Shown in pieces: positions 1 to 6,518 of a stretch of DNA of 6,518 bases (its first letter is position 1; the number at the start of each line of letters is the position of its first letter). This DNA comes from JADFSZ01 sp022560555 [NCBI: PVC group bacterium] (lineage in GTDB: Bacteria; GCA-001730085; JADFSZ01). The position numbers were made by a program, and so were the translations under genes. The DNA is taken from assembly GCA_022560555.1 (NCBI GenBank), contig JADFSZ010000099.1, positions 1 to 6,518 of the forward strand. The letters run 5' to 3'. Below the pieces are notes generated by a model. The model made no database searches. It saw only the letters and a list, made by a program, of their open reading frames with translations, and was not told the DNA's origin.

Positions 1-2514
1 GGAACTTTGTCTTTAGATCATGAGATCAGTGTTGTGGATAACAACTCAACGGATGGATCTCAGGAAGCGTTTCAAAGCACCTGGGGGTCTCGTATTGAAC
101 TGATTGAAAACCGGGTGAATTGCGGATTTAGCCAGGCGGTTAATCAGGGGCTTCGAAAATCGATTGGCAAGATGATCCTGCTGATCAATTCCGACGTTAT
201 TTTAAATGATGAAGCCCTGAAAGCGATGGCGGCCTATATAAAGGCGCATCCGGATTGCGGGATGGTGTCTGTTCAGCTCCTTGATGAGGATGGCAAAAAG
301 CAGAATTCTTATGATACCTACCCATGCCTGAGAACGGAAGTATTGGGGAAGCCCCTCACCCGGTATCTCACACGTCGTTTCGGAGCTCACAGGAGCCCCA
401 AGGATGAGGTGATGATGGTAGAGAGTTTGGTAGGAGCCTGTTTTTTGGTGTCACGTGAAGCTCTTGGGGTTGTGGGTCCTATGGATGAACGCTATTATTT
501 TTTTATGGAAGAAACAGAGTGGTGTTATCGCATGAATCGGCAAGGATTTCATATTGCGTTTTTACCCCAAGTCAATGTGATTCATAAACAGGGGCAAACA
601 GCGAGTCAATACTGGTATGAAGCTCGCGTTGAGTATCATATCAGCAAGTATCTTTTTTTTGATCAAGTTTACGGATGGCCCTTACGCGTATGCTCACAGG
701 GTTTATCCGCGTTTAGATGCGGAATCAATTTTCTTTTTAATGCCGTGTTAGGCGTTTTTGTGTCTCAAAATAGAAAAAGAGCGGGCCTTTATGGCTATTT
801 GTTGATGTGGCATGTGCGCGGATGTCCCGGAACGTGGGGCTTGAGAATGAATGAAGCGAAAAAGGTTGAAAAATGTGATGGTTCATCTTCGGGCAAAAAC
901 ACGGTTTGGGTTCGGCAACATATCCCTGAGGATGTAAAAAATGAAATTATCCGGATAACAAAAATGATAGATCAGCCTAGAGCGGAGACGGAATATTTCT
1001 CTTTATTAAAAGAATCGAGTGTGAGAAAAATATGGCGCTTCTCATCCGTTGGGGCGTCAGGATTTGTGATAAAAAAACACATACCCAAGGGAGCCGGAAA
1101 GTGGGTGCGGCAATGGTTCTCGCCCTCACAGGCGAAAAGAGAATATCAAGCTGCGTGGCATTTGCAATCCCTCGGCTTGCCGACGGTGACGCCACTTGCC
1201 TATGGCACAAGTACTCACCAGGGTCCCCGAAAGGAATCATTTATTATTTTTGAAGAAATAAAGAATTTAGGTGTTTTGTCAGTTATTTACGAAGATTTTC
1301 AAAAAAACGGCTGTTCATTTCCGAAGGACGATTTGAAATGTCTTGCCGAGATAACGGCCAAAATGCACACACGTAACATTTATCACGCGGATTTCCATAT
1401 CGGGAATATCGGTGTCGTCAGCCATGGATCAGGCAAACAGTTCATTATTATGGATCTACAGCGGATAAAGTTCAAAGGACATTTGTCTAAAAGGAATCGA
1501 AAAAGAGATCTAGCCTATTTTGTGAGTCGATTTTTAAAAAACGATGCTTTGGCTTTTATCAAAGCGTATAATTCATTTTGTTCGGGGCATAAAGATATTG
1601 TGTTTGATGAGATATGGAGGCTTAAACAAAACATTGGAAACAAAAAACGTAAAAGGCGTTTAGCGCAAGCTCTTTATCCGAAGGGAAGCTGTGTTGTCCG
1701 GGAACATGGCTATAAGATTATTTTAGCCGGACGAAATTTTCAAAATCTGATCAAGAACGAATCAATATGGCCGGCTAAGGTCAAAGCCAATCCGGAGAAT
1801 AGAGTCATAAAAAAGTCAAGAACGTCTCAGGTTTATTATGGGAATTTTGGTAATATTGGGACTTGTTATTATAAAATTGATAATTCCCGCGGAGTTTATG
1901 ATTTTATAAAAAATATATTTCGACCCAGCCGGGCTCTGAGAGCTTGGCGGGCCTTGGCTCGTTTAGAACTTTTGGGCTTTCGTGTGCCACAGGCCGTTTT
2001 GTGTGCCGAAAAAAGAAACCTGATATTTTGGCGGGAGAGTTTTCTTATCACAAAATCCGTATCAGGAGCCGTATCTTTAGACCGGTATATCAAAGAGAAC
2101 GAATTATCTGAGAACTTTGCCGCCAAAAAGAAGTTTATTCTGGAGAACTTGGCCGATTTGCTTTTCAGACTGCATCTGCACAAAATTTACCATGCGGATC
2201 TCAAAGCGGCGAATATTCTTATCGATCCAAAAAATCTCGAGATGACGATTATTGATACGGATCGTGTGTATTTTAAGAAATGTCTTTTCGAGAAACATAT
2301 TGTTAAAAATCTATCACAGCTCAATGCCTCGTTTTTTGAAAATGTCAGTATGAAAGAACGGATGCGTTTTTTTCAAAAATACACACAAGGCGCCATGAGT
2401 CGCCCCCAACGATCCCGAGTTTTAAAGGCTGTTCAAACGAAAACAATTTCACGTTGGAAAGAGATCGGAAGATCCGTAAAGAGTATTCCCGGGGGGGCGA
2501 TGAACCATGCCTAA
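1..2514 (+). CDS. GT2 glycosyltransferase fused to two WaaP/Kdo-kinase-like domains (5' partial)
   Basis: The reading frame is open to the left edge and the GT2 N-terminal strand with the first turn is missing, so roughly 30 or more residues lie upstream; the TTG at 7 is probably internal. Counting that codon as residue 1, residues 1 to about 280 are a GT-A fold glycosyltransferase of the rhamnosyltransferase-like COG1216 type: VVDNNSTDGS (9-18), a DxD-like NSD (61-63), GACFLVSRE (143-151) and an acidic EETEWCYR helix (168-175). Residues about 310-550 form a lipopolysaccharide-kinase-like domain with Lys356 in VIKK, helix-C Glu379, catalytic loop HADFHIGN (460-467) and metal Asp483 in MDLQR. 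Residues about 600-790 form a second such domain with Lys623, HADLKAAN (729-736) and Asp750 in IDTDR, but Ala646 where the helix-C Glu is expected. The predicted role is cytoplasmic or membrane-associated sugar transfer coupled to phosphorylation of a surface glycan. Acceptor and sugar donor are unknown. The domain calls rest on motifs only; the GT2 part is the most secure. Confidence 0.88.
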   Translation, partial: GTLSLDHEISVVDNNSTDGSQEAFQSTWGSRIELIENRVNCGFSQAVNQGLRKSIGKMILLINSDVILNDEALKAMAAYIKAHPDCGMVSVQLLDEDGKKQNSYDTYPCLRTEVLGKPLTRYLTRRFGAHRSPKDEVMMVESLVGACFLVSREALGVVGPMDERYYFFMEETEWCYRMNRQGFHIAFLPQVNVIHKQGQTASQYWYEARVEYHISKYLFFDQVYGWPLRVCSQGLSAFRCGINFLFNAVLGVFVSQNRKRAGLYGYLLMWHVRGCPGTWGLRMNEAKKVEKCDGSSSGKNTVWVRQHIPEDVKNEIIRITKMIDQPRAETEYFSLLKESSVRKIWRFSSVGASGFVIKKHIPKGAGKWVRQWFSPSQAKREYQAAWHLQSLGLPTVTPLAYGTSTHQGPRKESFIIFEEIKNLGVLSVIYEDFQKNGCSFPKDDLKCLAEITAKMHTRNIYHADFHIGNIGVVSHGSGKQFIIMDLQRIKFKGHLSKRNRKRDLAYFVSRFLKNDALAFIKAYNSFCSGHKDIVFDEIWRLKQNIGNKKRKRRLAQALYPKGSCVVREHGYKIILAGRNFQNLIKNESIWPAKVKANPENRVIKKSRTSQVYYGNFGNIGTCYYKIDNSRGVYDFIKNIFRPSRALRAWRALARLELLGFRVPQAVLCAEKRNLIFWRESFLITKSVSGAVSLDRYIKENELSENFAAKKKFILENLADLLFRLHLHKIYHADLKAANILIDPKNLEMTIIDTDRVYFKKCLFEKHIVKNLSQLNASFFENVSMKERMRFFQKYTQGAMSRPQRSRVLKAVQTKTISRWKEIGRSVKSIPGGAMNHA

Positions 2515-4107: not shown

Positions 4108-5108
4108 GAGAATTTGACATCGCAAAAATGTTTGATCATAAGAACGTTCTGATCACAGGTGGTCTTGGTTTTATCGGCAGCACCGTTGCCAGATATCTTG
4201 TCCAAAAAAGCTCGGCGCGCATTGTTCTGGTGGACTCATTGATTCCTGATTACGGCGGGAATCTTTTTAATATCAACGGGATTGAAGAACGCATGCATGT
4301 GAATATTGCGGATGTGCGTGATGAAAACACCATGAACAATATTGTTAAAAAGCAGGATGTTATATTCAATCTCGCGGGAACATCATCGCATGTTGATTCG
4401 ATGAAAGATCCGTTTACGGATTTGGATATCAACTGCCGAAGCCAATTGTCTATTTTGGAAGCCTGTAGAAAACATAATCCAAATGTCAAAATTGTTTTTT
4501 CGGGAACGCGGGGGGAGTATGGACGGGCAGATTATCTCCCGGTTGACGAGAAACATCCGTTGCATCCCACGGACGTTAACGGTATCAACAATATGGCCGG
4601 GGAATGGTATCACATATTGTATAACAATGTGTATGATATTCGTGCGACCTCATTGAGATTAACCAACACGTATGGACCGCGCCATCAGATGAAGCATAGT
4701 AAGCAAGGTTTCTTGAATTGGTTCATACGCCTCGCGATGGAGGATAAAGAAATTCCCATCTATGGCGACGGGGCTCAAAAAAGGGATTTTAACTTTGTTG
4801 ATGATGTGGCTATGGCCTTGATGATAGCGGCCGCGGATGACAAAGCGAATGGGAGAATCTATAATTTAGGAACCCTGGAACCCGTGAGCGTGGCGGATAT
4901 AGCCCGGATGATTATCAAAGAACTCGGACAGGGACGAATTAAGTTTGTTCCTTTCCCGGAGGATAAAAAGAGAATAGAAATCTGGGATTTTTATAGCGAT
5001 TACGGAAAAATAAAAGATGAGCTTGGTTGGAAGCCAAGTACTTCATTGGCTCGAGGGCTTAAAGATACGATCCGGTTTTATAAGAACAACAAAGAGCATT
5101 ATTGGTGA
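4104..5108 (+). CDS. Extended SDR NAD-dependent epimerase/dehydratase-like protein lacking YxxxK
   Basis: This 334-residue protein has the length and layout of sugar-nucleotide epimerases and dehydratases. The Rossmann dinucleotide motif is TGGLGFIGS (18-26), with an acidic residue after beta-2 (VLVDS, Asp44) that favours NAD over NADP. FNLAG (88-92), the Thr of SGTRGEYGR (133-141), LRLTNTYGPR (184-193), a late RDFNFVDDVA (227-236) and YNLGT (253-257) all match the extended SDR fold. At the active site, where YGxSK is expected, it reads NGINN (159-163), so Tyr and Lys are both Asn. From memory, a subgroup of these proteins carries a DVNGIN motif, so the Tyr loss may be ancestral; loss of Lys is less expected. 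It may catalyse a different reaction or bind a nucleotide sugar without oxidising it. It starts in a 4-base ATGA overlap with the upstream gene and sits before an aminotransferase, which fits a nucleotide-sugar modification step. Confidence 0.88.
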   Translation: MREFDIAKMFDHKNVLITGGLGFIGSTVARYLVQKSSARIVLVDSLIPDYGGNLFNINGIEERMHVNIADVRDENTMNNIVKKQDVIFNLAGTSSHVDSMKDPFTDLDINCRSQLSILEACRKHNPNVKIVFSGTRGEYGRADYLPVDEKHPLHPTDVNGINNMAGEWYHILYNNVYDIRATSLRLTNTYGPRHQMKHSKQGFLNWFIRLAMEDKEIPIYGDGAQKRDFNFVDDVAMALMIAAADDKANGRIYNLGTLEPVSVADIARMIIKELGQGRIKFVPFPEDKKRIEIWDFYSDYGKIKDELGWKPSTSLARGLKDTIRFYKNNKEHYW

Positions 5109-6229
5109 ATGTGAACATTCCTTTCTTCTATTATCAGCGTGAATATAAAAACATTCGAGCAGATCTCCAAAAAGCGGCCGGGGATGTATTTGCTTCAGGA
5201 CGATTTATTCTTGGCGATCATCTCAAATCATTTGAACAACAATTCGCACAATTTTGTGGGGCCCCATTTGCTGTTGGTGTCGCAAGCGGAACGGATGCGC
5301 TGACACTCGCCCTTTTGGCTTGTAGACTGAAGCCGGGAGATGAGGTGATAACAGTTGCCAATGGGGCTTATCCGACCATAGTGGGGATTGTAAGGGCAGG
5401 ACTTCGTCCGGTATTTGTTGATATTTGTCCCGAAACATGGCTCATGGATTCCAAACAGATCGCGGGCGCTTGTTCCAAAAAAACGAAAGCCATTATTCCC
5501 GTCCATCTTTTCGGGAATATGGTTGATATGAAGGCCTTGTCCAAAAGTGCGAAAACAAAAAAACTGATTGTTATTGAAGATGCGTGTCAAGCTCATGGAG
5601 GGATTCTTGATAAAAAGAAAGCCGGAACTTTTGGGCGTTTCGGATGTTTTAGTTTTTATCCAACCAAAAATTTGGGGGCCTTCGGAGACGGCGGGGCCAT
5701 CATTATGCATCGTCAAAAGGATTATAACGCCTTAAGACAGTCGAGAAATTATGGGCAATCGGATCGGTACAATCATCCCGTATTTGGATTGAACAGTCGT
5801 CTTGATGAATTGCAGGCGGCCTATTTGAGCGTTAAACTCAAATATTTAAAAAGATGGAATCAGTGGCGATCCCATCTAGCTCATTTGTATCGAGAACATC
5901 TGAAAAAAATTGATGAGATTTCCATGCCTTGTATAAACCCCTTAAGCCGGCAAACCCATCACTTATTTGTGATCCGAGTCAAAAAGAGAAATGCCCTGCA
6001 GGCCCATCTAGCCAAACAGGGGATTATGACCCTCATTCATTATCCGATTCCGGCTCACAGACAAAAAGCCTTTCTGGGGCTTGGTTATAAGGCGGGAGAT
6101 TTGCCTCATACGGAGAGATGCTGCCGCGAAATTTTATCCCTTCCCATAAGCCCCTTTTTAAAACCTTCTGAAGTGCGTACTATTTGCTCTTTGATTGAAG
6201 GGTATTATAAGAAAAATACCCGTTCGTGA
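5105..6229 (+). CDS. DegT/DnrJ/EryC1-family PLP-dependent sugar aminotransferase
   Basis: The product is 374 residues from a GTG start that overlaps the upstream stop codon (GTGA), the commonest coupled arrangement; a TTG one codon earlier and a GTG at 5111 are alternatives, and there is no in-frame ATG nearby. The family pattern is complete: IPFFYYQREY N-terminus, SGRFILG (31-37), SGTDALTLAL phosphate-cup region (61-70), IEDACQAHG with the PLP-contacting Asp (157-165), the Schiff-base Lys188 in SFYPTKNLG (183-191), GDGGA, and NSRLDELQAA (230-239). Such enzymes use glutamate to aminate a keto sugar bound to a nucleotide. The SFYPTKNLGAFGDGGA and NSRLDELQA features resemble the FdtB/QdtB 3-amino-sugar enzymes, but C3 versus C4 specificity cannot be settled here. 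It is cytosolic. It is the last gene of the operon in the window, and the preceding SDR is the obvious candidate partner for its substrate or product. Confidence 0.94.
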   Translation: MNVNIPFFYYQREYKNIRADLQKAAGDVFASGRFILGDHLKSFEQQFAQFCGAPFAVGVASGTDALTLALLACRLKPGDEVITVANGAYPTIVGIVRAGLRPVFVDICPETWLMDSKQIAGACSKKTKAIIPVHLFGNMVDMKALSKSAKTKKLIVIEDACQAHGGILDKKKAGTFGRFGCFSFYPTKNLGAFGDGGAIIMHRQKDYNALRQSRNYGQSDRYNHPVFGLNSRLDELQAAYLSVKLKYLKRWNQWRSHLAHLYREHLKKIDEISMPCINPLSRQTHHLFVIRVKKRNALQAHLAKQGIMTLIHYPIPAHRQKAFLGLGYKAGDLPHTERCCREILSLPISPFLKPSEVRTICSLIEGYYKKNTRS

Positions 6230-6292
6230 TGATGTCAAAGTAATAATAACAAACAGAGTTACTTACATAAAAATTAAAAGTAGATCGTTTTG

Positions 6293-6322
6293 TTGACATA
6301 TACGACATATATGTGCTACTTA
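6293..6322 (+). promoter_or_regulatory. Probable sigma70-type promoter for the riboswitch leader
   Basis: A perfect -35 hexamer TTGACA lies at 6293-6298. Eighteen bases downstream is TACTTA (6317-6322), preceded by TG-C (6314-6316), which would be an extended -10 element; TATAAA at 6321-6326 is a better hexamer but sits 22 bases from the -35. Transcription would begin near 6329-6332, just before the first aptamer. The flanking 6230-6292 stretch is AT-rich and shows no gene. Confidence 0.5.
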
Positions 6323-6342
6323 TAAATACACACATAATATAC

Positions 6343-6424
6343 TACTGAAATAGGGCATACTTTGGGTAACCAAAGGACGCAAAGTTACGGATCCCGCATG
6401 CACGGGATGGCCGATCTACCAGTG
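6343..6424 (+). promoter_or_regulatory. Cyclic di-GMP-I (GEMM-I) riboswitch aptamer, first copy
   Basis: The GEMM-I core is readable by eye. GGGCATAC (6353-6360) is followed by a 6-bp hairpin CTTTGG/CCAAAG (6360-6365 with 6370-6375) capped by the GNRA tetraloop GTAA, then GGACGCAAAG (6375-6384). A second arm has CGG (6388-6390) pairing with CCG (6411-6413) and an inner hairpin ATCCCG/CGGGAT (6391-6396 with 6403-6408), followed by ATGGCCG. The closing stem P1 is TACTG (6343-6347) with CAGTG (6420-6424). In known GEMM-I RNAs the G of the GGC block at Vc2 position 20 selects c-di-GMP over cGAMP; here it is G (6354). Departures from consensus are T at 6358 in the usual GCAAAC and weak pairing at the base of the second arm (GTTA). 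The target gene lies beyond the window. Confidence 0.88.
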
Positions 6425-6432
6425 AATTTGAT

Positions 6433-6473
6433 AATCGTATTGGTTGAGAAGCCGTACGATTTTTTTGGTTTTT
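6433..6473 (+). terminator. Intrinsic terminator between the two aptamers
   Basis: AATCGTA (6433-6439) pairs perfectly with TACGATT (6455-6461). The stem continues inward, after one bulged T, with TGGTT pairing to AGCCG through wobble pairs, capped by a GAGA tetraloop (6446-6449). The hairpin runs straight into seven T (6460-6466), then GG and five more T. It begins 8 bases after the P1 strand of the first aptamer, so it is the likely expression platform of that riboswitch. Whether ligand favours or prevents it cannot be read directly, because it does not overlap P1. Confidence 0.82.
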
Positions 6474-6518
6474 ACAGTCGATAAAGGCAAACCTTGAGTA
6501 ATCAAGGGACGCAAAACT
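6474..6518 (+). promoter_or_regulatory. Cyclic di-GMP-I (GEMM-I) riboswitch aptamer, second copy (3' truncated by window)
   Basis: AAAGGCAAACC (6483-6493) is the consensus GEMM-I entry. It is followed by the hairpin CCTTGA/TCAAGG (6492-6497 with 6502-6507) with a GTAA GNRA tetraloop, then GGACGCAAAA (6507-6516). The window ends before the second arm and the closing strand, so only about half the aptamer is visible. It fits the consensus better than the first copy in the GCAAAC block, and it also has G (6486) at the ligand-specificity position. Its core lies 132 bases downstream of the equivalent base in copy one. Confidence 0.85.

Follow-up and report, generated by a model that had tools for sequence, protein, structure and literature searches.

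A probable tandem c-di-GMP-I riboswitch downstream of polysaccharide genes in a little-sampled bacterial phylum

Tandem arrangements are well documented for c-di-GMP-I (GEMM-I) aptamers: a published survey counts 347 doublets and 12 triplets, the most of any class surveyed (PMC9481103). A second study places c-di-GMP, with classes I and II pooled, among three families for which contiguous arrangement is enriched (PMC12452182). In two papers, c-di-GMP riboswitches in series are each complete with their own expression platform (PMC12452182, PMC4759541), and control by a tested triple c-di-GMP-I riboswitch is described as more stringent and more digital (PMC4759541). An earlier note on the DNA analyzed here had called such tandems uncommon, which these counts contradict. 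Our own sample points the same way. Among 98 genomes, GEMM-I matches at E 0.001 were found in 22, the host's own included, and three of the 21 others (G052, G061, and G076) carry two or more such matches within 300 bases, as judged by eye. Their four tandem stretches comprise 11 aptamers over the cut-offs; the linkers, also read by eye, contain a run of at least five T in four of seven cases and none in the other three.

The window, that is, the whole stretch analyzed, is the entire contig C69 of the host genome (6,518 bases). This genome comprises 1.66 Mb in 222 contigs and is 91.5% complete. Its phylum is represented by two genomes in the comparison set, the host's included; the single other genome gave no GEMM-I match at E 0.001. 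Five polysaccharide-type genes, all running left to right according to the open reading frame (ORF) list and Pfam, precede the aptamers:

1–2514, plus strand: 837-aa frame, open at the left contig edge; combines one family 2 glycosyltransferase part with two Kdo/WaaP kinase stretches
After the 837-aa frame, plus strand: two further family 2 glycosyltransferases (Pfam and ORF list)
Between these and the DegT gene, plus strand: epimerase/dehydratase (Pfam and ORF list)
5102–6229, plus strand: DegT/DnrJ/EryC1 aminotransferase (Pfam PF01041, E 1e-100), final gene of the polysaccharide cluster
6293–6326, plus strand: possible promoter, weak (TTGACA at 6293, TATAAA at 6321, spacing 22)
6345–6424, plus strand: copy 1, complete c-di-GMP-I aptamer (cmscan and RF01051 score)
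6344–6347/6420–6423, plus strand: P1 of copy 1
6355–6356/6379–6380 and 6360–6365/6370–6375, plus strand: P2 of copy 1, with GUAA loop
6383–6397/6402–6417, plus strand: P3 of copy 1 (model pairs)
6433–6473, plus strand: terminator-like hairpin (6433–6461) and U tract, 8 nt after copy 1 (from energy, pairs, and letters)
6477–6518, plus strand: copy 2, 5' half of an aptamer (P1 5' strand, P2 with GUAA loop, and first P3 bases; cmscan)

In the first frame, the joining of a family 2 glycosyltransferase to two Kdo/WaaP kinase stretches may represent a fusion. The placement of the tandem downstream of polysaccharide genes, as described in the earlier note, was borne out, with a gap of 115 bases between the DegT stop at 6229 and copy 1. 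The aminotransferase gene is treated here as context for the aptamers, with putative regulation at most.

The two aptamer copies and their predicted ligand

Copy 1 scored 56.8 bits against RF01051 (clan CL00126), exceeding the curated cut-off of 35. By this covariance-model test it is secure as a c-di-GMP-I aptamer, for which ligand binding is predicted. In cmscan it matched RF03168 with 56.3 bits (E 2e-10, model positions 1–81), under the subfamily cut-off of 65.9, and its RF03167 score of 48.5 bits likewise lies under the cut-off of that subfamily (59). The copy can form P1, with all four pairs standard, P2 with a GNRA loop (GUAA), and P3; 20 of the 22 model pairs in P2 and P3 are standard, the exceptions being T6385/T6415 and C6397/A6402. 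Free folding of copy 1 prefers other pairings by about 2–3 kcal/mol.

Copy 2 is visible only as a 5' half because the contig ends at 6518. It gave a 3'-cut cmscan match to RF03167 (35.0 bits, E 1.8e-5, model positions 1–42 of 80) and is absent from the match lists of the whole-genome RF01051 and RF03167 searches. The RF01051 check that the earlier note had proposed for both copies upheld copy 1 and failed to list the contig-cut copy 2. Since the break falls at the contig end, absence of the 3' half says nothing, and we infer that copy 2 is very likely a whole aptamer.

The two cores lie on the plus strand, in the same orientation and 132 bases apart, as the earlier note had it, with GTAA loops at 6366 and 6498 and the block GGACGCAAA at 6375 and 6507; a scan of both strands found no further occurrence of G[GA]AC[GA]CAAA in the window. 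From copy 1 to copy 2, two of the six pairs of the P2 hairpin are altered on both sides with pairing kept (pair 2 from T-A to C-G, pair 6 from G-C to A-T), and the other four are identical. The earlier reading of these differences as compensatory change agrees with this comparison of two pairs in two sequences. In a comparison across 42 positions, copy 1 has 29 identities with copy 2 and 23 with a further aptamer of the same genome on contig C126; the C126 aptamer has 30 with copy 2. A recent local duplication is thus not favored, copy 2 being equally near to C126 and to copy 1.

The ligand-contact bases of c-di-GMP-I aptamers, which we take to be G20, A47, and C92, correspond in the cmscan alignments to G6354, A6381, and C6419 in copy 1 and to G6486 and A6513 in copy 2, where the third position would fall past the contig end. 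UAU and GGC, Rfam names that presumably denote variants at contact positions, were considered as a sign of altered specificity and dropped; neither copy has those bases. A published survey associates G at the first contact position with the c-di-GMP type and A with the type preferring c-AMP-GMP (PMC9481103). The G present in both copies therefore points to the c-di-GMP rather than the c-AMP-GMP type, and both aptamers are predicted to bind c-di-GMP. Genome-wide Pfam searches at E 0.001 yielded six GGDEF matches (one partial), 14 PilZ matches, and three matches to HD_5, and no EAL match at the same threshold. We take HD_5 to be HD-GYP-like. Judging from these families, the host probably synthesizes, senses, and degrades c-di-GMP.

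Several searches were directed at the sequence to the right of the contig. When the last 289 bases were searched against the own genome, 13 matches resulted; besides the window, these were 12 weak hits (E 0.12 to 5.05) that all stopped short of the query end. RF03167, applied to the own genome with E up to 10, found copy 1, the aptamers on contigs C51 and C126, and two weak matches, at positions 50–96 of contig C54 and on C175 (12.3 bits). The C54 stretch was considered as the missing half and rejected, as cmscan of the locus gave no c-di-GMP match. A guessed 3'-half pattern allowing up to two mismatches occurred 52 times in the own genome, whereas its reversed control occurred 144 times; the pattern therefore performed no better than chance. 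The 19-base copy 2 pattern had no match in viral contigs, a phage search with 6230–6518 returned one match of 21 bases (E 1), and a scan of genome contigs with the DegT protein found five relatives with 39–41% identity. These own-genome and viral-contig searches for a continuation past 6518 did not find the regulated gene.

The hairpin between the copies

The linker between the copies comprises 52 nt (6425–6476) and contains a terminator-like hairpin that was absent from the earlier note. The hairpin at 6433–6461 has an energy of −11.6 kcal/mol (z −2.28), which was equaled in 5 of 200 shuffles of 6425–6476. Behind it runs a U tract made up of seven T (6460–6466, of which the first two are the last stem bases), GG, and five T (6469–6473). 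The consensus terminator scan of the plus strand did not report this hairpin. In our assessment, hairpin and U tract are probably a terminator, and 6433–6473 is the probable expression platform of aptamer 1.

Folding models revealed no switching of this element. For RNAs starting at 6299 or 6332 and ending at 6476, the three terminator pairs followed had probabilities of 0.988–0.994 in free folding and 0.995–1.0 with the aptamer helices enforced, so that the hairpin forms with or without the aptamer fold; the model therefore yields no ON or OFF sign for copy 1. Pairing of the terminator arms with the leader was no better than that of shuffled arms (equaled in fractions of 0.60 and 0.48 of 1000 shuffles). 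A slightly longer stem, 6419–6468, would extend to C6419 and the P1 strand; its energy is −11.8 kcal/mol, compared with −11.6 kcal/mol for the core hairpin. When 6330–6518 is folded, the lowest-energy structure lacks P1 of copy 1: the 3' end of that copy is paired with the 5' end of copy 2, and the hairpin stays formed, enclosed by this pairing between the copies.

Possible serial riboswitches and competing explanations

The hairpin and U tract between the copies suggest two riboswitches in series. In this arrangement, which we favor with moderate confidence, the RNA leader of a gene beyond the right contig end would carry two c-di-GMP-I riboswitches. Copy 1, with its own terminator at 6433–6473, would present RNA polymerase with one c-di-GMP-dependent decision, and copy 2 would be met only by transcripts that read through. 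Two independent decisions on one signal would steepen the response, an arrangement published as "pseudo-cooperative". The explanation supposes that the hairpin would terminate, that it would be switched, and that a gene would lie downstream. It is consistent with the RF01051 score of copy 1 and the E value of copy 2 on half a model, with the U-tract hairpin between them, with the contact bases of both copies, with the GGDEF, PilZ, and HD_5 families of the genome, with the published c-di-GMP riboswitches in series, and with the T runs in four of the seven linkers elsewhere. Against it stand the lack of a modeled switch, the silence of the terminator scan, the three linkers without a T run, the pairing of the copy 1 3' end across the linker with copy 2, a hairpin core that spares P1, and a contig that lacks the second half of copy 2 and everything downstream.

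Alternatively, the hairpin may be no more than the terminator of the upstream operon. Copy 1 would then lie in the 3' end of the polysaccharide operon or belong to a separate short RNA, and only copy 2 would switch the next gene. This would fit the equal stability of the hairpin with and without the aptamer, a fold of 6230–6343 whose hairpins have no U run behind them, and the terminator scan, which lists none between 6229 and copy 1, though it also missed 6433–6461. However, riboswitches usually have the aptamer placed immediately ahead of a terminator, and the weak promoter-like stretch at 6293–6326 directly precedes the aptamer; its spacing of 22 is longer than usual, and a promoter scan of 6100–6518 found none by its rule, this stretch included. 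We consider an operon terminator rather unlikely.

Slightly less credible, and unlikely in our view, is a single platform beyond copy 2 that both aptamers would share, acting cooperatively like tandem glycine riboswitches, with the hairpin as part of the linker. The short linker, the lowest-energy fold joining the copies across it, and the tandems elsewhere whose linkers lack a run of five T would agree with such cooperation, but here the linker holds a U-tract hairpin that persists in that very fold, and published c-di-GMP tandems are described as having one platform each (PMC12452182, PMC4759541).

Decay of copy 2 to a half-copy, with copy 1 acting alone, is improbable: the visible part covers only 42 of 80 model positions, but its core is intact, P2 has changed with pairing kept, and a break at the contig end is uninformative about the missing half. 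Very improbable, finally, are different jobs or opposite signs for the copies, with copy 1 setting the 3' end of the polysaccharide operon or read-through and copy 2 switching the next gene, which is favored solely by the layout and by a terminator forming whatever the aptamer does, and which, if true, would let one signal couple the upstream and downstream units or give a band-pass response.

Related loci and known tandem systems

Two more GEMM-I aptamers of the genome exceed the RF01051 cut-off, with 58.8 bits on contig C51 and 36 bits on contig C126. Both are single copies, in contrast to the tandem in the window:

C51, 1592–69, minus strand: c-di-GMP-I aptamer locus, before a 442-aa protein
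C126, about 903–1112: c-di-GMP-I aptamer, P3 with 95 bases against 9 in the model

Like copy 1, the C51 aptamer is followed by a hairpin and a U run. Unlike in copy 1, the 11 terminator pairs rise from 0.15–0.26 in free folding to 0.56–1.0 with the aptamer enforced (nine of them to at least 0.96). Without enforcement, the lowest-energy fold has the P2 region paired with the 5' arm of the terminator. The complementarity of this arm was matched by 7.9% of 2000 shuffles and is suggestive only. The layout at C51 is OFF-like. The downstream 442-aa protein looks secreted by eye and has a HELAH motif, presumably zinc-peptidase-like; a Pfam search of the protein gave no match. A CHASE2-domain gene lies divergently.

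The C126 aptamer scores 53.8 bits with its P3 insert and 36–36.8 bits without it. Its 5' strand at about 903–923 has a long complementarity to the sequence behind the aptamer at about 1085–1112, to a degree equaled in 0.65% of shuffles. Between the aptamer and a tRNA at 1354–1424 there is no ORF longer than 41 aa; a UvrD-type helicase then follows at 1524. A platform survey of 31 of 69 GEMM-I aptamers (copy 1 of the window and 30 loci) labeled 11 hairpins as overlapping the aptamer and 10 as separate, with 10 aptamers lacking a terminator-like hairpin. We did not use it as evidence for polarity because its rule was too permissive, stretching weak stems, including that of copy 1, which it labeled as overlapping.

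The titles and abstract openings searched contain no mention of the locus, which does not bear on whether it is in print. As in the surveyed tandems, class I aptamers follow one another on one strand; here, in contrast, copy 2 is incomplete, the target gene would lie beyond the contig, and the host phylum is little sampled (PMC9481103). The window also resembles the Bc3-5 triple tandem of Bacillus thuringiensis in having aptamers in series. Each Bc3-5 aptamer has its own platform, and the ON model of Zhou et al. has a terminator whose formation is in competition with P3, the binding-site C, and P1 (PMC4759541). In the window, a terminator-like hairpin follows copy 1, and a platform of copy 2 would be located past the contig end; in contrast to Bc3-5, the hairpin core begins 8 nt past the aptamer and uses neither P3, the binding-site C, nor P1. 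Taken together, sequence and models describe a probable tandem c-di-GMP-I riboswitch, an arrangement already described and common, and add one such probable system from a little-sampled phylum, in a genome with GGDEF and PilZ matches; the downstream gene, if known, would show which behavior may be subject to sharp c-di-GMP control in this group.
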